DNA of 64,000 nucleotides from Chloroflexota bacterium (lineage in GTDB: Bacteria > Chloroflexota > UBA6077 > SHYK01), in contig DASRDP010000004.1 of assembly GCA_035652535.1 (NCBI GenBank), positions 1 through 64,000 of the forward strand. The letters run 5' to 3'. Numbering within the stretch: position 1 is the stretch's first letter; each line of letters starts with the position of its first letter. Position numbers and translations under genes: made by a program. Below the pieces are notes generated by a model. The model saw only the letters and a program-made list of their open reading frames with translations. It was not told where the DNA came from and searched no databases. Positions 1-64,000 of this stretch are shown here, piece by piece.

Positions 1-3000
1 GAGGTGTCCTCGGCCGCGAAGTCCCCGGCCGTGTTCAGATACGCGACGTTGTTCCAGAAGGCGATGCTGTCCGCGATGCCGTCGGTTCCAACGGTGTCGG
101 CGTTTTTATGTTGGACGAGCACACCACCGCCCTGCGTCGGCGCCGACCCGAAGGTGAACGTGTTGTTATAGACCTGCATGTCGCTCGTGCCCGTGCAGAC
201 GCTGCACAGCGCGGCGAAGTTGCCCCCGCCCTGTAGCGACGTGTTGCGGGTCAGCACGTTGTCGTACACCCGAAGCCCCGGCACCTCGCCCAGAACCTTC
301 AGGCCGCCGCCCGCGCCAATCGTGTCGCCGCAGCAGCCAGTATTGCTGGCGGAATTGGACTCGAACCAATTGTGGTGAATCGTCGCGTTGGGATCCTGAG
401 TGGTGAGAATGTCGCCATTGCCCAGCTGGAAGGCGCCGCCGGCTCCTTGCGCGCTGTTGCGCGTGAACCGGTTCTCCCGCACCTCCAGACCGGTGCTGCC
501 GCTGCTGCCGCCGAAATACACGGCGCCCCCACTGCCATCGGTCTTGTTACCGTCGAAGGTATTCCCCTTGATGAGCGCATTGGTGGTGGTGCGGGTTGCG
601 TCCCAATAGATGGCGCCGCCATCGACGTCCGCGTTGTTGCCGCTGAAGGTATTGCCGATGACCTGGAATCCGTCCGAGGGAGCCGCGAAGGAGAGCGCGC
701 CACCATCTTCGTACGCGTTGTTGCCCGAGAACGTGCTGTTGGTGATGGCGGCCGGCGTGCCCGCATTGTTGATCGTCGTGTCGTCGTAGAACGAGATGGC
801 GCCGCCCCGGTCGTCGGTCGCCTTGTTCCCTCGGAACGTCGACCCGGTGACGAGCAAGCTGTTCACCAGAGCGTCGAAGAGGATCGCCCCGCCCTGGTCG
901 TAGGATGAGTTGCCGATGAAGCTCGTATTCTGGATCGTCATATTCGGCGATTGCGCTTCGATCTCGATGGCGCCGCCGGAGCTGTTTGTCGAGCTATTGC
1001 CCTGGAAGGTGGCGTTCTTGATGGTGAAGTGGTCCATGACATACGACGACGAGGTGAAGATGGCCCCGCCGTCGCTTTGCGACGAGTTATTGGTGAAGCT
1101 GGCGCCGTCGATGGTCACCCGCGGCGAGGCGAAGTCAGGGCTGTTGCAGCTGCTGCACAGGAACGACACTGCCCCGCCCTGATAGTAGGACGCGTTGCCG
1201 CTGAAGCTCCCCCCCAGGATCTGGAGGTTCGGCATGCCGACGTCGAAGTGCACCGCGCCGCCGCCACCCAACTCGCCCGACCCGGCCGAGTTGCCCGTGA
1301 AGGTCTCGTTCTGCATCAGCACCTGGGCGTTCGGCTGGCCAAACGTCTCGGCGGTCGGCGGGGCCGGGGAGTACTCGCCGTAGCTGATAGCGCCGCCGCC
1401 ATATTCTGCGGCGTTCTCCGTCCACGTGTTCCCGACGAACTGCAGACACGAGTTCGTCGCGCCGATCCACATCGCCCCAGCCGCACTGACGGCCGAGTTG
1501 TGGATGAAGGTATTTCCAGTGAAGGTCGTCGGCGCGCCGCAGGTCGAGTTGATGCCGCCCAGATGGATGGCGCCGGCGCGATCGTCGGCGAAGTTGCTGT
1601 CGAAGGTGTTGCCCGTGAAGGTGTGGTGGTACCCCTGGTCGCCGATCCGCAGCGCGCCGCCCTCGTAATCGCCGAAGTTGCCCTGGAACGTGTTGCCCGT
1701 GAACGTCGTGTTCCCGTTTCCGGAGCCGATGCTCACCGCGCCCCCGGCTGCATCGGACCCCGCAGCGTTGTTATTGAGAAACTGGTTCGAGGTGAAGGTC
1801 GGGCTGCTGTTGTTGCCCAGCGCGTTGCTGAAGTCGGGTCCGTTGCCCGACACCTTGACACAGCCGCCCCGACCGCCCTCGCTCTGGCCGTTGATGGATA
1901 CGTTGGACTGGCAGGTATTCCCGGACATGGTCAGATTCTTGTTGGTCCAGCCAATGGCGATCGCCCCGCCCGAGCTGTTCGAGCTGTTGCTGGTGAAGGT
2001 GTTGCCGCTGATGAGCAGGTTGTCCACGTCGGTCAGCACCCAGAGGGCGCCGCCCTCCTGAGCCATGCTCCCCGACGTGGGAATGCAGCAGCTGCCGGTG
2101 TACATCGCGACGTTGTTCTCGAAGGTGTTGTTCGCGATCTGGCTGCCGTCGTTGTCCTCCAGGAGCGCGATCCCGCCCCCGCGGCTCGCCGAGTTCAGGC
2201 GGATCGCGTTGTTCCGAATCACGACCGGCGTGCCGATCCCGACGAAGATGGCGCCGCCAGCGTCGTCGACGCCGGTGTTGTTGAAGCCGGTGATCGTGAA
2301 GTTCTGGATCGTCACCGTTCCCAGGTTGTCCAGCACGCCGATGCCGGGCCCGGTGCTCGTATTCACGGTCGCCAGGGCGTTGGCCCTCGCATTGCTCTTG
2401 GGCGCCCCGACCCACTGGCTCACAAAGGCGTTGTAGATCCGCTGCGCGGTCGCCTTCGGATCGTTCTTCCCGCCGGACCGGGCGTTGCCCTGGCTGTTTG
2501 CGCGATGGGCTTGCTTCGCCGCGGCCCGTGCAGCGTGCCCCTTGCCGCTCCCGCCCTGGGCGTTGGCTCGCGCGCCTGCGTTCCGCCCGGCGCCGGTCCC
2601 GGAGCCCGGACCGGTGCCCGGCTTCGCCTGCTTGGTCGCGGGCCCGCTCGCTCCGCTGGTGTTGGCCCGCGCCCGCAGGGTCGCGGTCGCCGTGGCCAGC
2701 TTCGTCTTCGCCGCCGCCTTCGCCGTTGCCGCTTTCGCCTGGGCCGCCGCCACCTCCGCGGCGACGTTCTCGACGCCCGGCCCCTTCAGGTACGTGACGT
2801 CCTTCCCCTGACCCTGCAAGGTCAGCGTTTTGTCGATCACGATGGGCACGTCGATCTGGCAGTAGCTCACCCCGGGCCCCTGACTGACCGTCAGGGTATC
2901 GCCCGGGCTCGAGGCCGCGATCACGGCGTTAATGCCCGTGCCATCGGCGGAGCCCGTGCAGACGTAGCTCTGCGGGCTGCCCAGCGCGATCTGCGCCGGC

Positions 3001-3071
3001 ACAAAGGGTAGGAGTGGCACGAGGGAAAAAACCACGGCGATTGTCGCGAGAATCGCAACGGATCGGTGCAT
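1..3071 (-). CDS. Secreted beta-helix (PMP-like repeat) surface protein, 3' end outside window
   Basis: The reading frame is open from an ATG at 3071 to the left edge (about 1,023 codons), so the C-terminus is missing. A purine-rich GGGGGGA ribosome-binding site lies just upstream. Residues 1-25 form a signal peptide (MHRSVAIL then a hydrophobic run ending near FVPAQIA). From about residue 215 onward I count some 23 repeats of roughly 40 residues combining an FxxN element (for example FTGNTF) with a GGAI, GGAL or GGAV element. This is the pattern of right-handed parallel beta-helices and of chlamydial-type polymorphic membrane protein repeats. Residues about 95-205 are an unusual Ala/Gly/Lys/Arg-rich low-complexity insert. 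An adhesin or other cell-surface role is inferred from fold and secretion; no catalytic residues are recognisable. The long plus-strand frame over the same DNA is a shadow. Confidence 0.85.
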   Translation of the reverse strand, partial: MHRSVAILATIAVVFSLVPLLPFVPAQIALGSPQSYVCTGSADGTGINAVIAASSPGDTLTVSQGPGVSYCQIDVPIVIDKTLTLQGQGKDVTYLKGPGVENVAAEVAAAQAKAATAKAAAKTKLATATATLRARANTSGASGPATKQAKPGTGPGSGTGAGRNAGARANAQGGSGKGHAARAAAKQAHRANSQGNARSGGKNDPKATAQRIYNAFVSQWVGAPKSNARANALATVNTSTGPGIGVLDNLGTVTIQNFTITGFNNTGVDDAGGAIFVGIGTPVVIRNNAIRLNSASRGGGIALLEDNDGSQIANNTFENNVAMYTGSCCIPTSGSMAQEGGALWVLTDVDNLLISGNTFTSNSSNSSGGAIAIGWTNKNLTMSGNTCQSNVSINGQSEGGRGGCVKVSGNGPDFSNALGNNSSPTFTSNQFLNNNAAGSDAAGGAVSIGSGNGNTTFTGNTFQGNFGDYEGGALRIGDQGYHHTFTGNTFDSNFADDRAGAIHLGGINSTCGAPTTFTGNTFIHNSAVSAAGAMWIGATNSCLQFVGNTWTENAAEYGGGAISYGEYSPAPPTAETFGQPNAQVLMQNETFTGNSAGSGELGGGGAVHFDVGMPNLQILGGSFSGNASYYQGGAVSFLCSSCNSPDFASPRVTIDGASFTNNSSQSDGGAIFTSSSYVMDHFTIKNATFQGNSSTNSSGGAIEIEAQSPNMTIQNTSFIGNSSYDQGGAILFDALVNSLLVTGSTFRGNKATDDRGGAISFYDDTTINNAGTPAAITNSTFSGNNAYEDGGALSFAAPSDGFQVIGNTFSGNNADVDGGAIYWDATRTTTNALIKGNTFDGNKTDGSGGAVYFGGSSGSTGLEVRENRFTRNSAQGAGGAFQLGNGDILTTQDPNATIHHNWFESNSASNTGCCGDTIGAGGGLKVLGEVPGLRVYDNVLTRNTSLQGGGNFAALCSVCTGTSDMQVYNNTFTFGSAPTQGGGVLVQHKNADTVGTDGIADSIAFWNNVAYLNTAGDFAAEDT

Positions 3072-3159
3072 CAACGTCCCCCCTGAATGTCGTCGTTTCG
3101 TGACACCGGTATCGCGGGAGCCGCCCTCCGAGGAGCGCGGCGGAGGAGATCCAGCGCCT

Positions 3160-3236: not shown

Positions 3237-3411
3237 GGAGCCCCGGCCCGCCGTTCACGGCGGCGGCTCTCGCCCAAGGGAGGGATGCCGCCCTAAAGGG
3301 CGGGCCTTCGTTCCCGGAGCCCCGGCCCGCCGTTCACGGCGGCGGCCCTCAGCCGCCCGGAAGGGCGGGCCTTCGTTCCCGGAGCCCCGGCCGGCCGTTC
3401 ACGGCGGCGGC
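3237..3411 (-). repeat. GC-rich double-hairpin repeat array A (two full units and one partial)
   Basis: Read on the minus strand, units at 3411-3352 and 3347-3287 and a truncated unit at 3268-3237 share the same order of elements: a CCGCCG-TGAA-CGGCGG hairpin, a GGGGCTCC linker, then a second hairpin CCGCCC-loop-GGGCGG. In unit 3411-3352 the first right arm reads CGGCCG, so its stem is imperfect. Units are joined either by a TGAG-type short linker or by a longer linker containing ATCCCTCCCTTGGG. The same unit occurs nine times in array B in the opposite orientation. Open frames across the array are compositional artefacts. Confidence 0.85.
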
Positions 3412-3475
3412 TCAATCCGCCCGCCCTTCCATGGGTTCAGGTTCTTCGCCAGGCTCAGGACGAGCGGGGGGCGGA

Positions 3476-3985
3476 TCAGCCCTGGCGCCAGGCGCCCGAG
3501 ACGCGCATCGTCAGGGAGCCGCCCGCGTCGTTGATCAGCGTCAGGGTCTCGTTGTCGCCGGACCCGGCGTGGCGAACGCCGACCGCGGCGGCCGACTTGT
3601 TCATGTCGGTCCACTTGTCGAGCGCCCGCTGGCAGTCCCAGTCGCCCGCCCGGACGACGCCGGCCAGGAACGTCCCATCGGACGTCTTGACGTGCATGAA
3701 GCCCGCCGTATCGCATTCGACGGTGGCGCCGGTCAGCTTCCCCTGGACAGTGCCGCCCGGGCCGTCGCCGAGCCCGAAATCCCCTTCGCCGAGGGGCTGC
3801 GCGTCGGCGGGAAGGGCCGCGGAATCGGGCGTCGAGAGCGGAAACGGCGTCCCAGCGGGGGCTCCCGGCTGAGACGAGCGCGCATCGTCGGCCCCACCGG
3901 AGCACGCGGCCAGCAGGCCAAGGCCGAGGATGAGGAGGCCGGTCCACCGGACCGGCCCGGCGAAGAATCGAGATCGACGAACCAC
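3476..3985 (-). CDS. Small predicted lipoprotein, function unknown
   Basis: I place the start at GTG 3985, preceded by GGGGAGA about 9 bases upstream, because it gives a textbook lipoprotein signal: VVRRSRFF, a hydrophobic stretch, then a LLAAC lipobox with the lipidated Cys near residue 28. The frame extends in Arg-rich form to a GTG at 4057, which has a weaker ribosome-binding site. The mature part (about 140 residues) starts with a Ser/Pro/Ala-rich linker and then a compact domain with two Cys residues (VECDTAGF and DWDCQRA) that could pair. I do not recognise the family. It lies downstream of the DUF11 gene, separated from it by a strong hairpin. Confidence 0.7.
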   Translation of the reverse strand: MVRRSRFFAGPVRWTGLLILGLGLLAACSGGADDARSSQPGAPAGTPFPLSTPDSAALPADAQPLGEGDFGLGDGPGGTVQGKLTGATVECDTAGFMHVKTSDGTFLAGVVRAGDWDCQRALDKWTDMNKSAAAVGVRHAGSGDNETLTLINDAGGSLTMRVSGAWRQG

Positions 3986-4076
3986 GGCTGTATGTCTCCC
4001 CTTCGGCGCCCGAGCTGCGCGCCGGTCTCGCCTGATGGTACCCCGATTGGCCGCCACGAAGCGACCCCGATACAGA

Positions 4077-4108
4077 GCGAGGGGGCCCCCTTTCGGGAGC
4101 CCCCTCGC
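4077..4108 (-). terminator. Strong hairpin downstream of the DUF11 gene
   Basis: A perfect 10-bp stem, GCGAGGGGGC at 4077-4086 and GCCCCCTCGC at 4099-4108, encloses a 12-base loop with three further inner pairs. It sits 87 bases past the stop of the DUF11 gene and before the lipoprotein gene. The minus-strand sequence after it is not U-rich, so it is either a non-canonical terminator or a 3'-end stabiliser. Confidence 0.6.
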
Positions 4109-4194
4109 CTCGTCGGCTCATCCCTCGTTGGAGGGCGGCTCGCCCGTTGACACGCTGGGGGCGAGCGGTCCTCCGCGGAGGTTGGCGCCGACGG

Positions 4195-7100
4195 CTACGT
4201 CACCGACGTGAACTCCACGTCGCGATCATCGCTGCGGATGCTCGACGGCGGGTTGTTCGTGTAGGTGATCATGCCGCCGTTGGTGTTCTTCTCGCCCGCC
4301 AGGGCGCCGTTGCTGGCCGGGCCGAAGCCGTCGCCGCCGGTTGGGATCGAGTTCCTCGCCTCGGCGTCGGCGGAGAAGGAGCTGGCGGTCTGGGCCGCGG
4401 GCGCGTTCACCTGGACCACGATGGTTACGGTGTCACCCGCGTTGAGGCCCGCCATGGCGCACTGGTAGAAGCGCGTCGCCGCGCCGGAGCACGAGTCCGC
4501 AATCCGGCTCGACGTCACGGAGAAGACCGTCGCCCCGCCCGCTGGCGCGCCGCCAGATCCCGGGTCGCCGTTCGAGTTCCGGTCCGCGAGGCCGCCGCTC
4601 ACGACCCAGCCCGGCGGCGATGGGTGCCCGCCCGCGCTGTTGTTCGTCACGGTGACGACGTACGCGAAGTCGGGCGCCGGGCTCGCCGAGTTGACCGGGT
4701 CGAGGTTGTCGTTGATCGAGACGACGAGGTTGTAGCTGTAGATCGTCGACACGGTGCCGTTCACCGTGTTGTTGGCGGGGGTGCCGTCGCCGAACTGCAC
4801 CGCGCGGACGGCCGTCCACCCATGGTCACCCTGCGACGTGTTCGCCGCCGAGATCGCCACGTTGATGGTCGCGGTCGCCGTCGTCGCGCTCGGGTTCGAC
4901 ACCGTGCACGTCAGGACGTTGCTGGTGCCGATGCCCGTGCAGTTCTGCCACAGAGCGGTCCCGCTCGGGACGACGCTGGTCACCGTGTAGCCGGTGTCGA
5001 ACGTCACCGTCACGGTGCCCTTGCCGACCGCCGTGCCCGCGCCGGTGGTTACGGTGACCGCCACGAAGTCGGTGCTATCGCCGCCGGAGGTATCGCGGGT
5101 CTGGAATAGCTGGGTCCCGATAGCGATCGACTCGTCGCCGCAGCTGATGGCCAGCGACGGCGTCGTCGAGCTGTTGTCGCCCGGCGTCGTGTCGGCCGGC
5201 GCCACGATGGTCGCCGTGTTGGTCACGCCGCTGGTGCAGGCGTTGGCCACCGTCGGGATCGAGATGATCGCGTTGGTGCCCGCCGCGATGGAGCCGCCCG
5301 TGCAGTGCACCGTGTTCGGCGATGGTGTGCTGTTCACGATGCAGGAGAACGAGTTGCTCGCCACGATGGAGCCGATGGTGAGCTGGCTCGGGACCGTGTC
5401 GTCAACGGAGACGCCCGTGGCCGTGCCGGTGCCCGTCGCGCTGATGGTCAGCGTGTAGGTCACGGCGCCGCCGGGGTTCGTCGCATTGGTCGACTGGGTC
5501 TTCACGATGCCGAGCTGGACCGTCGGCGTGCCCGTGGCCGTCGCGGTTGGCGTCAGCGTGTTGGTCACCGTCGGGGTCGGTGTCTGCGTGTTGCAGCCGG
5601 ACACCGTGGTCACCTGGGTCGCCGTGTTGTTCGCCGCGGACGGCGACGTCAGCTTCGCGGTGTTGGTGATCGGTCCGCAGAACTGCGCGAGGCCGACGAT
5701 GTGGATCGTGGCCGTCTCGCCGCTGGGGATCGAGCCGTCGCCGCAGCTCACCGTCTGCGTGCCGGGGAAGGTCGCGCCCACCTCGCCGCACACGATGCCG
5801 TGGTCGGCGTCGGTGCTCACGAACTGGACCTGACCGGGCAGCGTGTCCGTCAGGCCGATGCCGTTGATGGTCACGCCGCTGGTGTTCGCCAGCTGCAGGG
5901 TGTAGGTGAGGGTCTGGCCGAGGGCCACCGGGTCCGGATTGTCGGTCTTCACGAAGGAGAGGCCGCTCGCCGGAATCGCGGTCGCCGTCGACGTCGGCGT
6001 CTGGGTCACCGTCGGGGTTCGCGTCTGGGTGCTCGTGCCGGTCAGCGACGGAACGGTCGTCGGCGTGTTGGCGCCGGCGCCGCAGGCCGTCTGCGACACG
6101 GCCGTGTTGTTGTTGAAGTCGCTCTCGTTGACGTTGTGCGTCGGGTTCACGATGGCCACGTTCATGATGGCCGAGCAGGCCGCGTTCGTGCCGACGACGA
6201 TGGTGATCGTCGCGCCGCCGTTCGGGCCGATCTGCCCGCCCGTGCACGTGACCGTGGGCGGAACGACGTTGCCGGGCGGGTTGACGCCCGCGTTGAAGTT
6301 GCAGACGAAGTTGCTGTCGCCTGCCGCGCTGAGGAAGGTGACCGCGTTACCCGGGTCGTTGGGATCCGACGAGTTGCAGAAGCCTGTCGTATTGTTCCCG
6401 TTCGCGCAGTCGAAGAAGATCCCGTTGTCCAGGATGTCCGTGACCGTCACGTTGTTGGCGCCGGCCGTGCCGGAGTTCTGGACGACCAGGGTGTAGGTGA
6501 TCTCGCCGTTGTTGGGCCCGCCGCCCGGGTTGGTCACCGGGTCGGGCTGGTCCGTCTTCGCGATGTGCAGGTCCACCGCCGGGGTCGCGGTCGCGGTCGC
6601 CGTGTTGGTCGGCGTTCGCGTCACGGTCGGCGTGTTGGTCACCGTGCTCGTCGCGGTCGGCGCCGTCGCCGTGTTCGTCGCCGTCGCCTGGACGCATCCG
6701 TTGATGACCAAGTCGTTGGTCGCGGAGGGTCCGGGCGGCGTGTCAGACGGGTTCAGGGTCACGGTGTTGTGCACGGGGGACACGACCACGCAGGGGTTGT
6801 CCACCGTGACGAGGATGTTGATGCGGCTGATCGATGGAGTGGAGATGGTCCCACCCGGGATCGTGCCGCCGGTGCATCCCACCGTGTTGCCGAAGTTGCC
6901 GCAGTTGAAGCCGCGGCCGTCGATGTCGGCCGCGGCGAGGAAGTGCACGCCCGCGGGCAGCGCGTCCTCGACGGCCGTGCCCGGCGCCGCGGTCTGGCCG
7001 GAGTTCGTGATCGTGATGGTGTAGGTCGCCGTCCCGCCGGCGTTCACCGGGTTCGGGTTGGCGATCTTCGAGATGGAGAGGTTCGCCGGCGTAAAGGTCG

Positions 7101-7956
7101 CCGTCGAGGTCGGCGTCGACGTATTCGTCGGCGTGCTCGTCGGCGGAGGCGTCCCCGTCGCCGTCGAGGTGCTCGTCGACGTGTTCGTTGGCGCGAGCGT
7201 GTTCGTTCGTGTCGGCGTCGACGTGGGCGGCGTGCCCGTGTTGGTCGCCGTTCGCGTCGCCGTCGGCGGTACGACGATGGAAGAAAGCCCCGGAACGCCG
7301 CACAGGAGGTTTGAGACCCCCAACACAGCGCCGGTCGCTGTCCCCGTGATGACGACCACGCAGGTGAGCTGGCCGTTCGTGTTCACGTTCACCGTGGTCC
7401 CGGTCGTCACCTGGACGCCGTCGGTTCCAACGGCCCACACGATGTAGCCGGCTGCCCCGGGCGTCGAATCCCAGGTCACCTTCATCGTCGTCGTGGACTG
7501 GTCCAGCTCAACGCGCGCGTTGATTGGGACGAGCCCGTTTGCGATGCCAAACACGGTGCACAGCACGTCCGATCGGCTCGTCGTGCTGCCCGTCACGCCG
7601 ACGAGCTGGTAGCAGGCCGCGCTCCCCGCCGAGGCGGGGACCGTGTCCTGGAAGAAGTCCAGCGTCGGCCCGAAGGGCTGGGTGGGGGTGACCGAGATCA
7701 CCGCGTTGCCGCTGGCATTGCTCGTCATGCGCACCAGCGTGTACGTCGTCGCGCCGGGCGTCCACAGGAAGGCGACGTCCCGACTCCCGGGGCTCGCCTG
7801 GCTCGCAAGGCTCACGAGCGTGAAGTTCTCCACGCCCGCGGCTGCGGACACCTGGCCGGCCGGTTGGATGAGGCCAATGAGCCCAGCGGCGACGAGTGCA
7901 CACAGCGCCGCTGCCCACAGGCCCATCCTCGGCCCGGACCGGTTACCGTCTATCAT
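4195..7956 (-). CDS. Secreted DUF11-repeat protein with Thr/Pro-rich linkers
   Basis: This 1,253-residue protein starts at ATG 7956 with GGAGGAA 8-9 bases upstream. Residues 12-38 are a signal peptide ending near VSAAAG. Residues 40-225 look like two fibronectin-III-type beta domains. Four DUF11-like domains follow, starting near residues 292, 462, 666 and 814 (each with a KTDxPDPV- or KIANPNPV-type opening and YTLxxxN strands). They are separated by Thr/Pro/Ala/Ser linkers such as [13 protein letters not shown] (about 230-290, 422-460, 632-664 and 790-812). Two more beta-rich domains lacking linkers finish the protein. There is no LPXTG motif or C-terminal membrane helix. DUF11 domains are typical of large bacterial and archaeal surface proteins; a stalk or adhesin role is inferred. 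Several paired Cys residues suggest disulfides. Confidence 0.85.
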
Positions 7957-8536
7957 CGCTTGCGTTCCTCCGATGGATAAGTGTGTGAGAAACGAGAGCG
8001 GGAATAACGCCGTTGGAGCACCTCCGTGGGCTCCGGATTGGGGGGGATCGACGCGGGGGTCTGGGTTGCATGCAGTTCGCGCTCCTTCCTCCTAGCTTCC
8101 TCCGTCTTGGTTTGCGCGCTTCCTCGCGTCGCGCTTCTCAGCCGTCGCCCCCTTGACCGACGGCAACGCCTGATAGGCCCACCCAATACGCGCACGGCAG
8201 GCCTGCGCTGCGACGCAGACAATCACTCTACTGAAACGTTTTGCAAACCGAAATGTGACAGGGCACAGCGGACCACGTAACGAGTCCTCGACCGGTCACA
8301 TCCATTCCAGCCTACCGTTGTACTCCTCAGACCGTCAAGCATTCGTTCCAATGCTGATACAGAACTGTGACTGCGCGGCCACACGGCCCGCATGCAATGG
8401 TCACGCGATCGAAACTGCGCCGCGCGACGGACCGGAACCGCGGGAAGGGCAGCCGTATGCCGGCTTAGCGTACCGGATCGTAACAAGCGAAAACAGTGAA
8501 CGCACGCACACGGTGCGGGCGGGCCGGGTTGGTGAG
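7957..8536. other. Intergenic region with no convincing gene
   Basis: About 580 bases upstream of the DUF11 gene carry only short frames without ribosome-binding sites or recognisable sequence. One AT-rich island at about 8221-8262 stands out. On the minus strand it holds a TAGAGT hexamer (-10-like) 17 bases after TTTCGG and the palindrome AAACGTTT, and may include the DUF11 promoter. If so, the transcript would have a 5' leader of about 260 bases. I could not match it to a riboswitch family. Confidence 0.35.
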
Positions 8537-9181
8537 GGCCGCCGCCGTGAACGGCGGGCCGCGGCTCCGAGAACGAGGGCCCGCCCTTCCGGGCGGCTGA
8601 GGGCCGCCGCCGTGAACCGCGCGCCGCGGCTCCGAGAACGAAGGCCCGCCCTTCCGGGCGGCATCCCTCTGTGTCCCGCCGCCGTGAACCGCCGGCCGGG
8701 GCTCCGCGAGCGAAGGCCCGCCCTTCCGGGCGGCATCCCTCCCTTGGGCGAGAGCCGCCGCCGTGAACGGCGGGCCGGGGCTCCGAGAACGAGGGCCCGC
8801 CCTTTAGGGCGGCATCCCTCCCTTGGGCGAGAGCCGCCGCCGTGAACCGCCGGCCGGGGCTCCGCGAGCGAAGGCCCGCCCTTTAGGGCGGCATCCCTCC
8901 CTTGGCTGAGGGCCGCTGCCGTGAACGGCGGGCCGGGGCTCCGAGAACGAAGGGCCCACCCTTCCGGGCGGCTGAGTGCCGCCGCCGTGAACGGCGGGCC
9001 GGGGCTCCGAGAACGAAGGGCCACCCTTCCGGGCGGCATCCCTCCGCTTGGTGAGTGCCGCCGCCGTGAACGGCGGGCCGGGGCTCCGAGAAGGAAGGGC
9101 CACCCTTCCGGGCGGCTGAGGGCCGCCGCCGTGAACCGCGCGCCGCGGCTCCGAGAACGAAGGCCCGCCCTTCCGGGCGGC
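8537..9181 (+). repeat. GC-rich double-hairpin repeat array B (nine units)
   Basis: Nine units of about 59-62 bases begin at approximately 8537, 8602, 8676, 8754, 8833, 8911, 8977, 9056 and 9121. Each contains GCCGCCGCCGTGAAC, then a GGGGCTCCGAGAACGA-type middle, then a hairpin CCGCCC-TTCC-GGGCGG. In the fourth and fifth units the loop is TTTA with the same stem. Three units carry a stem mismatch (CCACCC). Linkers are either TGAG or a 15-19-base ATCCCTC-type sequence. In units 2, 3, 5 and 9 the first hairpin has a changed right arm. The array lies between the GT75 gene and the DUF11 gene and is inverted relative to array A. Confidence 0.9.
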
Positions 9182-9232
9182 ATCCCTCAACCCATGGTGA
9201 ACCGAAAACCCGTACCCTTGCGCCTGGCTGTA

Positions 9233-10318
9233 CTACCGGAACGCGTCGACCCAGCGCTGCATCCAATCGCCCAGCTCAACGAACCCGCGCCGATAGTGCG
9301 CCGGGGCCCGCGAGCTCTGCGCGGCGCGCCGATACTCCTCGGTGAAGTGGGCGAACATCGTCCGATAGCTCGCGGGCGCAACGTTCTCGACGGCCCGGTC
9401 GACCAGCTCGTAGAACTCCCTGGCCATCAGATGCATGTACTGCTCGAGGCTGATGACCCGCTCCAGGTTGGTCTGCTTCGTGTGCTCGACCACGGGACGC
9501 CCGTAGGCGAAGAGGTCGCCCCGTCGGTCCATGAGCTTCTTGAGGATGTAGCCCCCCCAGATGTCGTCGTGGCGGGAGAGCTGCCAGCCCTCGATCCAGA
9601 TGTCCGGCAGGAAGAAGTACGCGGGCGTGAGCTCGGCGATGAAGGCGGTGTTCATGCCGCACACGGGGATGTTCCCCAGGGCGACGCGGGTGCGCTCGCC
9701 GCTGGGGCCTGGATCGGCCGGCACCTCGCGCTGGAGCTTGTCCACACCGTTCATGTCGAGGATGTTGTCCCACAGCCCCATGTTGACGACCACGTTGCCG
9801 GTGGTCCGCCTGGGGGTTGGGGCCGCTTCGGCGTTGCGGTATTCGTACGGGTACCCGCGCGCGTAGATCCCCGGCTGCTCGATGGGGTTGATCCACTGCG
9901 CTTGGAGCGCTTCCGCGTCCCGGACCGGCCCGAGGGCATCGAGATGCTCGCGCATCCACGATGGGCGCGGGCGGCAGTCGTAGTCGAGGGCGATGATGAC
10001 GTCGAAGCCTTCGCGATAGGCCACCACGTGCCCGAAATTGCGCGTCGCCGCGCTCTTGTGGGGGATCGCGTCGTAGTGGCTGCCCATGAACCGCCGCTGC
10101 GCGGCGTAGTCGAAGAAGCGCACATTGGGGCGTGGCGCGGGCGACAGGCGACCGTCACTGTCGTCCACGACGATGATCGGGATCTCCTCGGGGATGTACT
10201 CGAAGATGCGCCAGTCCGGATCGTTCGGGATCGGGATGACGACCGCCACTCGAGCGGTCGCCACGTCGATCGGCGGCACCGATGGGCTCGCCTGAGTCGC
10301 GCTTCGCGTCGAGTCCAT
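9233..10318 (-). CDS. GT75 / reversibly glycosylated polypeptide family protein (UDP-arabinopyranose mutase-like)
   Basis: The start is ATG 10318, whose A is shared with the TGA stop of the rmlD-like gene (TGATG), giving 361 residues. The protein matches hallmarks of the plant RGP/UAM family that I recall: IPIPND near the N-terminus (plant IPTIRN), a DYD at 112-114 in place of DDD, RGYPYEYR at 154-161 (plant RGYPFSLR, whose Arg is the self-glycosylated residue), GLWDNILD at 182-189, PVCGMN at 218-223 (plant PMCGMN), HDDIWGG at 250-256 (plant YDDMWAG) and a C-terminal MQRWVDAF. UAM interconverts UDP-arabinopyranose and UDP-arabinofuranose in the cytosol. As the last gene of the Wzx/Wzy operon it probably supplies or transfers a pentose for the glycan. 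A glycosyltransferase rather than mutase activity cannot be excluded. Confidence 0.8.
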   Translation of the reverse strand: MDSTRSATQASPSVPPIDVATARVAVVIPIPNDPDWRIFEYIPEEIPIIVVDDSDGRLSPAPRPNVRFFDYAAQRRFMGSHYDAIPHKSAATRNFGHVVAYREGFDVIIALDYDCRPRPSWMREHLDALGPVRDAEALQAQWINPIEQPGIYARGYPYEYRNAEAAPTPRRTTGNVVVNMGLWDNILDMNGVDKLQREVPADPGPSGERTRVALGNIPVCGMNTAFIAELTPAYFFLPDIWIEGWQLSRHDDIWGGYILKKLMDRRGDLFAYGRPVVEHTKQTNLERVISLEQYMHLMAREFYELVDRAVENVAPASYRTMFAHFTEEYRRAAQSSRAPAHYRRGFVELGDWMQRWVDAFR

Positions 10319-11337
10319 CAGACACGCCGCCCGAGAGTCCCGGCGTGCGGTTCGCCGTCTGGCGACCGCTCGCCGGGGCAGGCAAATTGGGGAAATGCCG
10401 TGCGCAGATACTCCTCCAGCGACGACTCCCACGGCCGCATGGTGTTCAGACCCAGGCGATCGAGGTGCGCGTTGCGCATCATCTCCGATCGCGGGCGCGG
10501 GGCCGGATACTCTTCCCTGAAGAACTCGGACGGCACCGAGCGCAGCTCGACGTCGCTGCGGAGAACTTTGAGGATGGCTCGCGCGACATCGAACCGCGTG
10601 CCGCTGCCGAGACACGCCATGTGATACAGCCCGTACTCCTCCGTCTCCAGCAGCGCGGCGAAGCAGCGCGCGAAATCCGGCGCGTACGTTGGCGTTCCCC
10701 ACTTGTCGTCCACGGCGTGCAACACCCTGGCCCCGGCGCGGATCTGGTGCAGGATCTTCGCGACGAACTTGTGGTCTCGATCGCCGCCGCCGACCATCCA
10801 GCCAGCGCGGACGATGAACGACCGGTCCACAAGCTCCCGCGTCCAGCACTCTCCCTGGAGCTTTGAGCGCCCGTACTCGTTGATCGGGATCGCCGGGTCA
10901 TCCTCGGTGTACGGCTCGGTCTTTTCGCCATCGAAGACGCCGGCCGTGCTGACGTACGCGAGCGGGATGCCGTCCCTCCGGCACGCGCGAGCGACGTATT
11001 CCGTTCCGGCCGCGTTGGTGGCGAAGGCGTGCGCGGGCTGCGCTTCACAGAGGTCGACGTCCGTTTCCGCCGCCAGATGCACGACGAAGTCCGGGCGGGT
11101 CCACGCGAGCCAGGCGTCGATGGCCGTCGGCTCGCGCACGTCGAGGTGACCGAGCGGCGTCCCGGTCCGCGGGGCGCCCCGACCGTTTCGGGACAGCGTG
11201 CGATCGATGGGCGCACAGTCCTCCATCGCGGTGGACGCCCGAAGATCGGTGGGGAAGACGACATGGCCGGCGTCGGCGAGGGCCGGCGCCATTGCGCTGC
11301 CCAGCATTCCTCCCGCGCCGGTGATAAGGATACGCAC
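10318..11337 (-). CDS. rfbD: RmlD-like NAD(P)-dependent sugar-nucleotide reductase
   Basis: Start GTG 11337 has a near-perfect AAGGAGGT ribosome-binding site eight bases upstream. The 339-residue protein is an extended short-chain dehydrogenase: GAGGMLG nucleotide-binding loop at 7-13, HLAAETDVDLCE at about 87-98 (typical of RmlD), the catalytic STAGVF region near 130 and YGRSK (Tyr155, Lys159). Known RmlD enzymes reduce dTDP-4-dehydrorhamnose to dTDP-L-rhamnose. No rmlA, rmlB or rmlC is in the window, so the exact substrate is not proven and another 4-keto-sugar reductase is possible. It is translationally coupled to the GT75 gene and lies 14 bases after the GT87 gene. Confidence 0.8.
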   Translation of the reverse strand: MRILITGAGGMLGSAMAPALADAGHVVFPTDLRASTAMEDCAPIDRTLSRNGRGAPRTGTPLGHLDVREPTAIDAWLAWTRPDFVVHLAAETDVDLCEAQPAHAFATNAAGTEYVARACRRDGIPLAYVSTAGVFDGEKTEPYTEDDPAIPINEYGRSKLQGECWTRELVDRSFIVRAGWMVGGGDRDHKFVAKILHQIRAGARVLHAVDDKWGTPTYAPDFARCFAALLETEEYGLYHMACLGSGTRFDVARAILKVLRSDVELRSVPSEFFREEYPAPRPRSEMMRNAHLDRLGLNTMRPWESSLEEYLRTAFPQFACPGERSPDGEPHAGTLGRRV

Positions 11338-59045: not shown

Positions 59046-62000
59046 TATGATCCGTTCTCCTTCAGCGCCGCGTCCGCGGCGCGTCGCCGAGGAGCGGCGG
59101 TCTTCGGCGCAGAGCCGGCCGCGCGCGTCGAACGCTGCGGAACCCAGTTTTTGATCTCGGCGAGCAGCCGCTCGGTGGCCTCTTCGCCTTTCAGGACAAT
59201 CCCCTGCGCGGACATCTGGAGCTGGCGGCGGTCCGCGGTGGTCAGGTCCTTGCTGGTCAGGATGATGACCGGCACCCGGCGGCCGGCCGGGCTCCGGCGC
59301 AGGGCATACAGAAACTCGAAGCCATCCATGTTGGGCATGAGCAGGTCGAGGACGATGGCCGCGGGCGCTTTTCCCTTGATCGCTTCCAGGCCGGCCTTCC
59401 CATCGGCGACGCACACCGGATCGAACCCGTGGTCGGCCAGCACCTCCCGAAGCACATCCCGCACCGACTGGTCGTCGTCGATCACCAGGATCGAGGCTGA
59501 TCCGTTCGGCTGGGCGCCGCTGCGGCCGATGGCCGCCAGCAGCTCTTCGCTCTTCACGGGCTTGAGCAGATAGTCGTGGATCGCGAAGCCCAGCCCGAGA
59601 TCAGCCTGGGCGATGACGGTCACGACGACGACCGGCGTCTCCGCGTTGTTGGTCCGGGTGCGGATCTCCTGCAACACCCGGGATCCGGGCAGGTCGGGCA
59701 GGAGCAGATCGAGGGTGATGGCGTCGAACACGCGCCGCTGGCAGTGGGAGATCGCCTCCGCGGCGGTCGCGGCGTAGGTGACGGCGTATCCTGCCTCGCC
59801 CAGGATGCGGCCCAGCCACTCCCGGTCGGTCGGGTTGTCATCGATGACCAGGATATTGGGGCCCGCCACTGCGGAGGTAGGGGTCGGCGGGCGGGCCAGA
59901 TTCTCCTCATCCAGCCGCCGCATCACGCGCGGTAGCACGGCAGAGAAGGTGCTGCCGTTGCCCGGGGCGCTGACCACGCCAACCTCACCGCCCTGCGCCT
60001 CGACCATGCGCTTGGTGAGCGCCAGGCCCAGGCCGGTGCCCTGGTACTTCTTGGCGATGCTGGCATCGAGCTGCTGGAACTCCACGAAGAGGCGGTTCAT
60101 CTCCTCGGCGGCGATCCCGATGCCGCTGTCCTGCACCTCGATCCGATACCAGTCGGGGCCCTGCGGGACGACGCGCACGGCGACGCTGCCCTCATTGGGG
60201 GTGAACTTGAGCGCATTGGAGAGGTAGTTGTAGAGGATCTGCTTGAGCCGAGCCGGATCGGCGACGACGGACAGCACGCTCGGGTCGACCTCGACCGCGA
60301 TCTGGATTAGCTTACTGGCGGCCAGCGTGCGCAGGACGTCGCGCACCTCGGCGACGATCTGATCGACCTGGACCGGCTCGGGGTTGAAGTCCATGCGCCC
60401 CGATTCCACTTTGGCCAGATCGAGCACGTCGTTGATGAGCTGGAGCAGGTGGCGCGAGCTCGTCAGGATGTCGCCCAGGTACTCCTTGTGCTCGTCTGAG
60501 ACCGGGCCCACCCTTCCGTCGTGCATGAGCTGCGCGAATCCGATGATCCCGTTGAGCGGTGTCCTGAGCTCGTGGCTCATGTTCGCGAGGAACTCGCTCT
60601 TGAGGCGGTTGGCTTCCTGCACGCGTCGGTACTGCTCCTCGAGCTCCTCATTCTTCCGCTGGAGCTGCTCCTCGAGCTGCTTCTGCTCAGTAATGTCCTT
60701 GGAGATGAGGACGTACCCGATGGGCACGCCCGTCGAGTCGCGCCGCAGCGTGATCGCGACCGAGGCGGTGAACCGGTCGCCACTCTTGCGCACCCGCTCG
60801 AAGACGCCCTCGGCCTTACCGGTGCTCATAGCGGTCTGCAGGATCGCGGCAACGCGGCCGGACTCCACATCCTCGGGCACGTGCAGGAGCTGCGCCTTCC
60901 GGCGACCCACCATCTCCTCGGCCGTATAGCCGTAGTTCCGGCGGGCCCCCTCGTTCCAGGCCAGAATCTGGCCCTCGAGGTCCATCGCGACGATGGAGTA
61001 CTCCGTCGAGCTCTCTAGCACGTTGTTCATGAACGACGTGGTCTCCATCAGCTCGCGGTTCTGCTCGCGGATCTGCTCTTCCAGCCGCTTTTGGTCCGTG
61101 ATATCGCGGGCGGCCGCGAACACCCCCCGCAGCCGCCCGTCGGCGCCGGTAAAGGTTGTGGCGTTGTAGGAGACGACGGTCTCCTTGCCGTCGGCGGCGC
61201 GAATCGTGAGCTCGTAGTTGGTGACCCGCTCCTCGGTGAGCACCCGGCGAATGCCGTCCTCGGCCCGCCTGGGATCGGTGAAGTAGTTCTTGAAGGGCGT
61301 TCCGATCAGATCCTCGCGCTCGCGGCCGGTCACCGCGCACATCTGGCGGTTGACGTCCGTGATGATGCCGAGCGTATCGGTGGTCATCAGCGCGTCGATG
61401 TTCGACTCGATGAGGCCGCGGGTGTAGGTTTGCTGCTCGCGCAGCTCCTCCTCGATCCGCTTCTGGAGGGTGCTGTCGCGGGCGGCGGCGAGGATCCCGG
61501 CCACGGTGCCGACGGTGTCGCGGAACACCGCCGCGTTGAACGAGACGGGAATCTTGCGGCCCGACTTGGTGCGGACGACAAGCTCGTAGTTAGTCACGAC
61601 CCCCTGCGCGAACGTGAGCGAGACGCCCGCCTGGGCGAGATCCGGCTCCGCGAAATAGCTGAAGAAGCGGCTGCCGATCAACTGCTTCCGAGTGAACCCC
61701 ATCAGCCGAACCGTCTGCTCGTTGACGTCGGTGATGACGCCGTCCGGATCGACGGTCATGAGCGCGTCCACGCTCGACTCGATGAGGCTCCGGTTGTACG
61801 CCTGCTGCTCGCGCAGCTCCTGCTCGAGCCGCTTCTGTTCGGTGATGTCGCGGGCGGCGGCCAGGATGCCGGCGATCTGGCCCTCCGTGTCCTGGAATGT
61901 GCCCGCGTTGAACGAGACCACCGTTCGGCGGCCGCTGCGGGACTGGAGCACGAGCTCGTAGTTGGTGACCGACCCTTCGGCCAGCGTCTGACGGACGCCG

Positions 62001-64000
62001 GCGATGGCGCGGTCGGGCTCCGTGAAGTACTCCTTGAACGAGCTGCCGATCAGATCCTCGCGCGTGTACCCGGTGAGATTGACCATCTGCTCGTTGACGT
62101 CGGTCACGACGCCATCGGGATCGACCGTGACCAGCGCGTCCACGCTGGACTCGATGAGGCCGCGGTTGTAGTTCTCCGACTCACGGAGCTGCTCCTCCAG
62201 CCGCCGCTGCTCGGTGACGTCGCGGGCGACGGCGAAGATGCCGCGGATGTCGCCCTCGGGGTCGCGGAAGATCGAGGCGTTGAACGAGACCAGGATCTCG
62301 CGCCGGTGGCGCGACCGCAGGAGCAGCTCGTAGTTGGTGACGAACCCCTCGTCCAGGGTGCGCCGGACGCCGGCGCGGGCGTTGGCCGCGTCGGTGAAGT
62401 AGTCCGGGAAGGGGCTGCCGACGAGCTGCTCGCGGGCGTATCCGGTCAGGCGGACCATCTGCTCGTTGACGTCGGTGATGGTCAGGTCGGGGTCGACCGT
62501 GAGCATGGCGTCGACGGACGACTCGATGAGGCCGCGGTTGTAGGCCTGCTGCTCCCGCAGCTGCTGCTCCAGCCGCTTCTGGTCCGTAATGTCGCGGGCG
62601 GCGGCGAACACGCCACGCAGCCGGCCATCCTCGCCGGTGAAGGTCGTCGCGTTGTAGGAGACGACGGTCTGCTTGCCATCCGCCGCGGCGATCGTGAGCT
62701 CGTAGTTCGTGACCCGGCCCTCGGTCAGCACGCGGCGAATGCCGTCCTCGGCTCGCTGGGGGTCGGTGAAGTACTCTTTGAACGGGGTGCCGACCAGCTC
62801 CTCGCGCTCACGCCCGGTGACCGCGCACATCTGGCGGTTGACGTCGGTGATGATGCCGAGCGTGTCCGTCGTCATCAGGGCGTCGATGTTCGACTCGATG
62901 AGACCGCGGTTGTAGGCCTGCTGCTCGCGCAGCTCCTGCTCCAGGCGCTTCTGGTCGGTGATGTCGCGGGCGGCCGCGAAGATGCCGGCGACGGCGCCGC
63001 TGATGTCGCGGAAAACCGAGGCGTTGAACGAGACGGCCAGCTCCGCGCCGGCCCGGGAGCGCAGCACGAGCTCGTAGTTGGTGACCACGCCGTTCTCGAA
63101 CGTCTCCCGCACCCCGGCCTCGGCTCGTACGGGATCGGTGAAGTAGCCGGCGAACGGGCTGCCGATCAGCTGCTGGCGGTTGTAGCCCGTCAATCGCACC
63201 ATCTGCTCGTTCACGTCGGTGATGATCCGCTCCGGGTTGACGGTGACGAGCGCATCCACGGACGCTTCGATCAAGCCGCGGCTGTAGTTCTCCGACTCGC
63301 GGAGCTGCTCCTCGAGGCCGCGCTGGTCGGTGACGTCGCGCGCCACGGCGAAGATGCCGCGGACGTTCCCCTCTGGATCGCGGAAGATCGAGGCGTTGAA
63401 CGACACCAGGACCTCCCGCCCGCCGTGGGTGCGGAGGGTCAGCTCGTAGTTGGTGACGAAGCCCTGATTCAAGGTCTGGCGGACGCCGGCGGCGGCATAC
63501 GCCGGCTCCGTAAAGTAGGAGTCGAACCGGCTGCCGATGAGGTTCTGTTTGGGCACCTCCGTCAGCTTGACCATCTGCTCGTTGACGTCGGTGATCATGA
63601 GGTCCTGGTCGACGGTGATCATCGGGTCGACCGAGGACTCGATCAGCCCGCGCGTGTAGTTCTGGGCCTGGCGCAGCTCCTCCTCGAGGCGCATCTGCTG
63701 GGTGATGTCGCGGGCGGACGCGAAGATGCCGCGGACGGCGCCGTCCGGGTCCTTAAACACCGAGGCGTTGAACGAAACCGCGCTCTCCGCGCCGGACTTG
63801 GCCCGCAGCACCAGCACGTAGTTGGTGACGAACCCCTCTTCGAGGGTCTGGCGGACGCCAGCCGTCGCAGCCTCGGCATCGGTGAAGAAGTCCGGGAAGT
63901 AGCTGCCGATGAGCTCGTCGCGGCTGTAGCCCGTGATGCGCACGGTTTGCTCGTTGACGTCCGTGATCTGAAACTGGGGATCCACCGTGAGGAGCGCGTC
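59045..64000 (-). CDS. Giant multi-PAS hybrid histidine kinase, 5' end outside window
   Basis: The frame is open to the right edge; 1,651 residues are visible and the gene begins beyond 64000. Counting from the GTG codon at 63985 as residue 1, eight near-identical PAS modules occupy 1-992, each with ITDVNEQMVRLTG, YFTDP and an AARDITDQKRLEEQLRE end. A ninth, divergent PAS (about 993-1100) is followed by a short coiled coil, HisKA with FLANMSHELRTPLNGI (His about 1138), HATPase_c (NYLSNALKF, DSGIGI, GTGLGL) and two receivers with Asp1426 and Asp1547. No membrane helix is visible. The C-terminal receiver has LKG instead of the usual KP after its Lys. It ends in a basic tail and is coupled to a single-domain receiver. 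Confidence 0.9.
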   Translation of the reverse strand, partial: DALLTVDPQFQITDVNEQTVRITGYSRDELIGSYFPDFFTDAEAATAGVRQTLEEGFVTNYVLVLRAKSGAESAVSFNASVFKDPDGAVRGIFASARDITQQMRLEEELRQAQNYTRGLIESSVDPMITVDQDLMITDVNEQMVKLTEVPKQNLIGSRFDSYFTEPAYAAAGVRQTLNQGFVTNYELTLRTHGGREVLVSFNASIFRDPEGNVRGIFAVARDVTDQRGLEEQLRESENYSRGLIEASVDALVTVNPERIITDVNEQMVRLTGYNRQQLIGSPFAGYFTDPVRAEAGVRETFENGVVTNYELVLRSRAGAELAVSFNASVFRDISGAVAGIFAAARDITDQKRLEQELREQQAYNRGLIESNIDALMTTDTLGIITDVNRQMCAVTGREREELVGTPFKEYFTDPQRAEDGIRRVLTEGRVTNYELTIAAADGKQTVVSYNATTFTGEDGRLRGVFAAARDITDQKRLEQQLREQQAYNRGLIESSVDAMLTVDPDLTITDVNEQMVRLTGYAREQLVGSPFPDYFTDAANARAGVRRTLDEGFVTNYELLLRSRHRREILVSFNASIFRDPEGDIRGIFAVARDVTEQRRLEEQLRESENYNRGLIESSVDALVTVDPDGVVTDVNEQMVNLTGYTREDLIGSSFKEYFTEPDRAIAGVRQTLAEGSVTNYELVLQSRSGRRTVVSFNAGTFQDTEGQIAGILAAARDITEQKRLEQELREQQAYNRSLIESSVDALMTVDPDGVITDVNEQTVRLMGFTRKQLIGSRFFSYFAEPDLAQAGVSLTFAQGVVTNYELVVRTKSGRKIPVSFNAAVFRDTVGTVAGILAAARDSTLQKRIEEELREQQTYTRGLIESNIDALMTTDTLGIITDVNRQMCAVTGREREDLIGTPFKNYFTDPRRAEDGIRRVLTEERVTNYELTIRAADGKETVVSYNATTFTGADGRLRGVFAAARDITDQKRLEEQIREQNRELMETTSFMNNVLESSTEYSIVAMDLEGQILAWNEGARRNYGYTAEEMVGRRKAQLLHVPEDVESGRVAAILQTAMSTGKAEGVFERVRKSGDRFTASVAITLRRDSTGVPIGYVLISKDITEQKQLEEQLQRKNEELEEQYRRVQEANRLKSEFLANMSHELRTPLNGIIGFAQLMHDGRVGPVSDEHKEYLGDILTSSRHLLQLINDVLDLAKVESGRMDFNPEPVQVDQIVAEVRDVLRTLAASKLIQIAVEVDPSVLSVVADPARLKQILYNYLSNALKFTPNEGSVAVRVVPQGPDWYRIEVQDSGIGIAAEEMNRLFVEFQQLDASIAKKYQGTGLGLALTKRMVEAQGGEVGVVSAPGNGSTFSAVLPRVMRRLDEENLARPPTPTSAVAGPNILVIDDNPTDREWLGRILGEAGYAVTYAATAAEAISHCQRRVFDAITLDLLLPDLPGSRVLQEIRTRTNNAETPVVVVTVIAQADLGLGFAIHDYLLKPVKSEELLAAIGRSGAQPNGSASILVIDDDQSVRDVLREVLADHGFDPVCVADGKAGLEAIKGKAPAAIVLDLLMPNMDGFEFLYALRRSPAGRRVPVIILTSKDLTTADRRQLQMSAQGIVLKGEEATERLLAEIKNWVPQRSTRAAGSAPKTAAPRRRAADAALKENGS
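61010..64000 (-). repeat. Tandem in-gene repeat, exact 372-bp period (eight PAS modules)
   Basis: Aligning the TVD-xxxx-ITDVNEQ site of each module gives starts at residues 1, 125, 249, 373, 497, 621, 745 and 869 of the visible protein, always 124 apart. In DNA the modules begin near 63985, 63613, 63241, 62869, 62497, 62125, 61753 and 61381 (minus strand). No module has an insertion or deletion. Modules 4 and 8 are most alike (DTLGIITDVNRQMCAVTGRE), differing mainly at synonymous sites. The array continues past the edge. Confidence 0.92.

Follow-up and report, generated by a model that had tools for sequence, protein, structure and literature searches.

REPs are short (20-40 nt) stem-loop palindromes present in many copies, mainly between genes, and two inverted REPs at a set distance form a REPIN or BIME. 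Among the described systems of this kind are the REPINs of Pseudomonas fluorescens SBW25 and the BIMEs of Escherichia coli. A Y1 transposase gene placed between inverted REPs is the arrangement that defines the REP-associated tyrosine transposases, or RAYTs (PMC2817692) and the REPtrons (PMC6006769). REPtrons whose REPs carry feet other than GTAG or CGTC have also been described, namely class 2.6, and class 3 with CnGA (PMC6006769).

Here we analyse two arrays of a roughly 61-nt unit in a window of 64,000 nt, i.e. the whole stretch of DNA considered (G000:C4:1-64000), from a draft genome of 4.45 Mb (G000; 98.3% complete, 4.6% contamination). The initial annotation did not recognise the unit as REP or BIME, which proved wrong, as the unit has the anatomy of a REP, a BIME and a REPIN, and the genome holds a cognate RAYT. 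We consider it highly probable that the unit is a REPIN, a non-autonomous element dispersed by the sole RAYT/TnpAREP of the genome (Table 1), and among the options previously listed it is the non-autonomous mobile repeat that the evidence supports. The shared palindrome, the doublet geometry, the extragenic copies, the RAYT with its inverted REPs, the parallel arrangement in a relative, the covarying stems and a site occupied in one genome and REP-free in others together argue for a REP/RAYT system. This is a known kind of element, found here in a little-studied lineage and with unusual details: an NGGC foot rather than GTAG or CGTC, doublet arms that are usually unlike, and nine tandem REPINs in array B. 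An uncultured Chloroflexota-related lineage, in which few such systems are described, gains a REP/RAYT system whose guide foot is unusual.

Anatomy of the unit and organisation of the arrays

The unit reads GCCGCCGCCGTGAACGGCGGGCC, followed by a spacer GGGGCTCCGAGAACGAA and then GGCCCGCCCTTCCGGGCGGC, subject to minor variation. On the opposite strand the second hairpin reads GCCGCCCGGAAGGGCGGGCC, i.e. the palindrome of the first with its closing pair reversed. The two hairpins attributed to each unit by the initial annotation are present, but as one palindrome in inverted orientation. Hairpin 2 repeats hairpin 1 in inverted orientation, with the common core GCCGCC-S-NNNN-S-GGCGG-GCC, which makes each 61-nt unit an inverted REP doublet (REPIN/BIME). 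The palindrome itself spans about 20 nt, with a six-pair stem and a four-base loop, as expected of a REP. In the example REPIN of Table 1, arm 2 is the core of arm 1 inverted and closed by C-G, and the whole element also folds into a single long hairpin (-37.9 kcal/mol). The foot on the guide side is conserved and reads NGGC; neither a GTAG nor a CGTC tetranucleotide was found at this position. Judged from its sequence, this foot bars membership in the GTAG and CGTC super-families, not in REP as a kind.

Table 1. Coordinates of the arrays, their REPINs, the neighbouring genes and the transposase gene (window positions unless a contig is named)
Feature	Position	Strand	Description
Beta-helix/PMP-repeat protein gene	3..3074	-	PF13229 2.3e-17, PF02415 9.2e-15; not part of the element
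Array A	3237..3413	-	Five model matches, inverted doublets: two REPINs and one single REP
Array A single REP	3237-3269		
Array A REPINs	3352-3411 and 3287-3346	-	Read on the minus strand
Putative lipoprotein gene (small)	3476..3985	-	LLAAC lipobox read from sequence; not part of the element
DUF11-repeat protein gene	4195..7956	-	Between the arrays; PF01345 8.2e-37; not part of the element
Array B	8538..9188	+	Tandem cluster, nine REPINs
Example REPIN	8754..8813	+	Arm 1 GCCGCC-GTGAAC-GGCGGGCC (+, 8757-8776), spacer, arm 2 (-, 8794-8813)
RGP-like (reversibly glycosylated polypeptide) protein gene	9233..10849	-	PF03214 1.4e-8; not part of the element
RAYT (Y1_Tnp) gene	G000:C36:29238-29699	-	153 aa; HVH motif, tyrosine before NP

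The presence of two arrays of a roughly 61-nt unit at these places, A with about 2.5 units and B with nine in the opposite orientation, was confirmed. On the minus strand, array A consists of two full units followed by a single hairpin. The two arrays are inverted copies with 91-96% identity across 114-135 nt. With up to three mismatches allowed, 12 of the 13 occurrences of the pattern GCCGCCGCCGTGAACCGC in the window fall within the arrays, and the total expected from shuffles is 0.7. The units of array B start at 8538, 8603, 8675, 8754, 8833, 8912, 8978, 9057 and 9122; the cores measure 60-61 nt and the periods 65, 66, 72 or 79 nt. Its linkers are of the two types previously distinguished, but their order (S,L,L,L,L,S,L,S,end) departs from the strict alternation that had been proposed. 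These short, repeated linkers of two types differ from those of a CRISPR array, in which unique spacers of near-constant length separate identical repeats.

Within array B, the 3' arm is altered in four of the nine first hairpins, and three of the second hairpins carry a G-to-A change in the stem. The cores of units B2 and B9 are identical, and a 141-nt segment (8529-8669) has a 96% identical counterpart at 9048-9188, a sign of tandem and segmental duplication in this array. Both arrays would have grown after insertion by tandem duplication of whole REPINs with their flanks, and a block was probably copied in inverted orientation between the places of arrays A and B, 5 kb apart.

Both large genes next to the arrays are on the minus strand, and by position the arrays do lie upstream of them, as the initial annotation held. 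Each array is nevertheless nearer to the 3' end of the preceding gene: array A lies about 63-69 nt from the putative lipoprotein gene versus about 170 nt from the large gene, and array B about 43 nt from the stop of the RGP-like gene versus about 580 nt. The beta-helix gene (window 1-3074) is truncated by the start of contig C4 and is seen incomplete, and a Pfam search of the putative lipoprotein gave no match. Elsewhere in the window, a minus-strand open frame of 1646 codons contains a 372-nt tandem repeat (61349-63731) with about 6.4 copies and 69% matches.

The transposase gene and the genomic distribution of the REP

The RAYT gene on contig C36 is the only Y1_Tnp gene in G000. In the NCBIfam scoring, which covers this RAYT alone, the best match was REP_Tyr_transpos (NF047646; 5.6e-22, 78.2 bits, cut-off 80), and the IS200 model gave 2.3e-13 (50.5 bits, cut-off 55). 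On its downstream side the gene is followed by 11 REPs on the plus strand with a 28-nt period, and on its upstream side by four REPs on the minus strand with a 62-nt period, opposite in orientation to the downstream set. This Y1 HUH gene is flanked by inverted copies of the same REP, as in a REPtron. By analogy with E. coli and other RAYTs, and notably with the biochemistry of TnpAREP binding, cutting and rejoining (PMC8266576), the HUH nuclease would recognise the single-stranded REP hairpin and the guide at its foot, and would cut and rejoin the REP, thereby copying REPINs into intergenic DNA.

The 62-nt repeats upstream of the gene (L031:5700-5960, G000:C36) also contain a copy of its start region, GGATGGCGAAATGTGG, so that the 5' end of the RAYT gene was duplicated along with the REP.

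Across G000, the core pattern GCCGCCSNNNNSGGCGGGCC has 44 exact matches versus one for the reversed control. A covariance model of the REP, built from 35 rows with G002 and G004 left out of training, returned 62 matches at about 20 loci; the resulting copy number of about 60 falls short of the more than 100 that are usual. Facing doublets, i.e. two inverted REPs at a set distance of 33-38 nt, number 11 in G000, 11 in G004 and two in G002, and single REPs and tandem single REPs are also present. Wherever examined in these three genomes, the clusters are extragenic, lying between predicted genes and, in G000, often 12-90 nt past a stop, gene boundaries having been drawn with a codon-usage script whose individual calls are approximate. 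Matches within genes are few, depart from the consensus and appear to be chance occurrences.

A match to a known repeat family, which the initial annotation had named as what would overturn its reading, exists at the level of kind (REP/REPIN), and the Rfam search of the window matched no family at gathering score. The checks that it had proposed gave positive results for genome-wide copies (62 matches), a RAYT and stem covariation.

A second abundant palindromic repeat family was observed in G000, GATGCTTCGCTNCGCTCAGCATGAC, with 24 exact copies against none for the reversed control; it is frequently arranged as tandem units of about 97 nt. It often adjoins REP loci (e.g. C5:9183-9498, C9:3637-3893, C48:8162-8494 and C104:55671-55915). 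In the window, a copy of another repeat, of the TTCGACAGGCTCAGGRCGAAC type with two mismatches (3445-3465), directly adjoins array A.

Relatives, stem covariation and the smpB-tmRNA site

Within the same family, the REP was found in G004 (32 matches) and G002 (8 matches), and the model gave only chance-level scores in G001 and G003. Three genera of the family have in common the REP, the doublet spacing (33-38 nt) and the extragenic location. No RAYT close to that of C36 was found in G002 or G004, two incomplete genomes (80-83%). At the level of the order, G012 yielded 129 matches at E 0.01 or better and G014 yielded 12. In 12 of the 14 clear doublets of G000, G002 and G004, and also in the window, the arms are unlike: the closing pair is C-G in one arm and G-C in the other, a pattern that recalls the unlike arms of E. 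coli BIMEs. Several G004 copies have common spacers, so that they are not independent for this count. By contrast, the G012 doublets have like arms, and those sampled (e.g. L159-L176) lie 24-41 nt apart with two main spacings, 31 and 41 nt. G012 is an incomplete genome of another family, in which a single RAYT was found, with GTAG-type hairpins around it.

The nearest named RAYT, 40% identical to the C36 protein, is that of Chloroflexi bacterium UBA6077, placed in Chloroflexota by NCBI, and of the matching genome G015; this is the basis for calling G000 Chloroflexota-related. The UBA6077 RAYT lies between inverted TCGGCC-STGAAS-GGCCGGGCTAA palindromes, of which G015 has 17 copies and five other genomes have none. 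The RAYT tree contains no resolved clade of the C36 and UBA6077 proteins (AU p = 0.145). A different RAYT, flanked by inverted GTAG-type palindromes (GTAGGGCGGGGGCTTGTCCCC...), was seen in relatives (L096 and L121; G004:C293 and G015:C89), so several REP/RAYT systems coexist in the order.

We tentatively suggest, as a possibility that we hold to be on the unlikely side, that the REP/RAYT pairs of the order form a lineage with a non-GTAG guide (NGGC, grading into TTAGC in one relative), in one family of which the REPIN arms were specialised as unlike ends. Such a lineage would imply a recognition of guide and ends differing from that of the characterised GTAG RAYTs.

Selection on structure had initially been proposed from a second stem kept while its loop changed from TTCC to TTTA. 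Judged from the window alone this is too weak, as the loop change says little, three second hairpins carry the stem G-to-A change and several units have broken stems, and cross-genome covariation was used instead, which does support the proposal. Within G000, the innermost stem pair alone changes on both sides; with the relatives included, three of the six stem pairs have changed on both sides and pairing holds in 96.7% of cells. Covariation scores 0.343, compared with 0.102 in shuffles, a control that is not a probability since the alignment rows are related, and at most 0.033 for slid structures. In this REP family, loop and foot are retained across genera as the stem covaries.

The family also offers, between smpB and the tmRNA gene, an occupied site to set against REP-free ones. 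In G000 and in seven relatives, smpB precedes a tmRNA gene; the gap measures 232 nt with three REPs in G000, and 111 nt or less, REP-free, in all seven relatives. This pattern of sequences fits a REP insertion in the G000 lineage, with loss elsewhere as the alternative.

Alternative readings and comparison with described systems

It is improbable that the hairpins are mainly RNA 3'-end elements of the upstream genes, intrinsic terminators or mRNA stabilisers retained for that role. Many clusters do lie 12-90 nt past gene 3' ends, and terminator-like matches are enriched on the minus strand of array B, in the direction of transcription (5 of the 13 of the region, with 3.3 expected over the whole region). 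Against this, the T tracts (CTTCGTTCTC) are of poor quality, array A is oriented the other way with respect to transcription, and some clusters sit between divergent genes; furthermore, the fixed-spacing inverted doublets, the flanking of the RAYT and the cluster of nine would be left unexplained. An effect of the arrays on transcript ends is possible as a secondary one, and should the arrays influence neighbouring genes (through 3'-end mRNA protection, attenuation, or gyrase or IHF binding), this would likewise be secondary.

It is still less probable that the arrays are substrates for recombination or inversion by which the DUF11 and beta-helix surface genes are diversified, an idea to which the inverted repeats of A and B (91-96%, 114-135 nt), flanking the lipoprotein and DUF11 genes, lend some substance. 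Other clusters of G000 adjoin unrelated housekeeping genes, the neighbours including smpB/tmRNA, an ABC transporter, an amidohydrolase, DHBP synthase, a rhomboid protease, a Rieske protein and a CoxE-like protein. Because these neighbours are so diverse, the link to surface genes drawn by the initial annotation is unsupported. More generally, hairpin arrays beside large genes need not regulate those genes.

That the repeats are the termini of a different kind of transposon (a MITE of a DDE element), with the RAYT nearby by accident, is barely credible: the doublets resemble short inverted-repeat MITEs in sequence shape, but the palindrome is also found singly and as tandem single copies, exactly this REP flanks the only Y1 gene in inverted orientation, and a relative has the same RAYT association with a different REP sequence.

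The REP/RAYT reading itself has points against it, namely the NGGC foot in place of the GT(A/G)G or CGTC tag that most described REPs carry, a RAYT scoring just under cut-off, about 60 copies, no close RAYT found in G002 and G004, the damaged stems of array B and a RAYT tree without a resolved clade. Three described systems come closest. The REP family of the UBA6077 RAYT (L045; G015:C25) has, as here, a TGAA or TAAA loop, an exchangeable closing pair and a 3' GGGC, and forms inverted doublets 36-39 nt apart adjoining the 40% identical RAYT; it differs in its stem, CGGCC instead of CCGCC, and in its foot, TTAGC, nearer to GTAG. The E. coli BIMEs and the TnpAREP REPtron (PMC8266576, PMC6006769) likewise combine inverted REPs of two arm types in mosaics with one transposase gene flanked by REPs, but E. 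coli REPs have a GTAG foot and a bulged stem, whereas the REP described here has a regular six-pair stem and an NGGC foot. The REPINs of P. fluorescens SBW25 (PMC3116915) are also extragenic inverted REP doublets of set spacing that form long hairpins, and they occur in ordered tandem clusters that include their flanks, as well as in clusters beside the RAYT gene. They have another sequence and foot, and are more numerous than the copies reported here, whose arms are usually unlike in the closing pair. The largest ordered cluster in SBW25 comprises four REPINs plus one REP, compared with the nine REPINs of array B.
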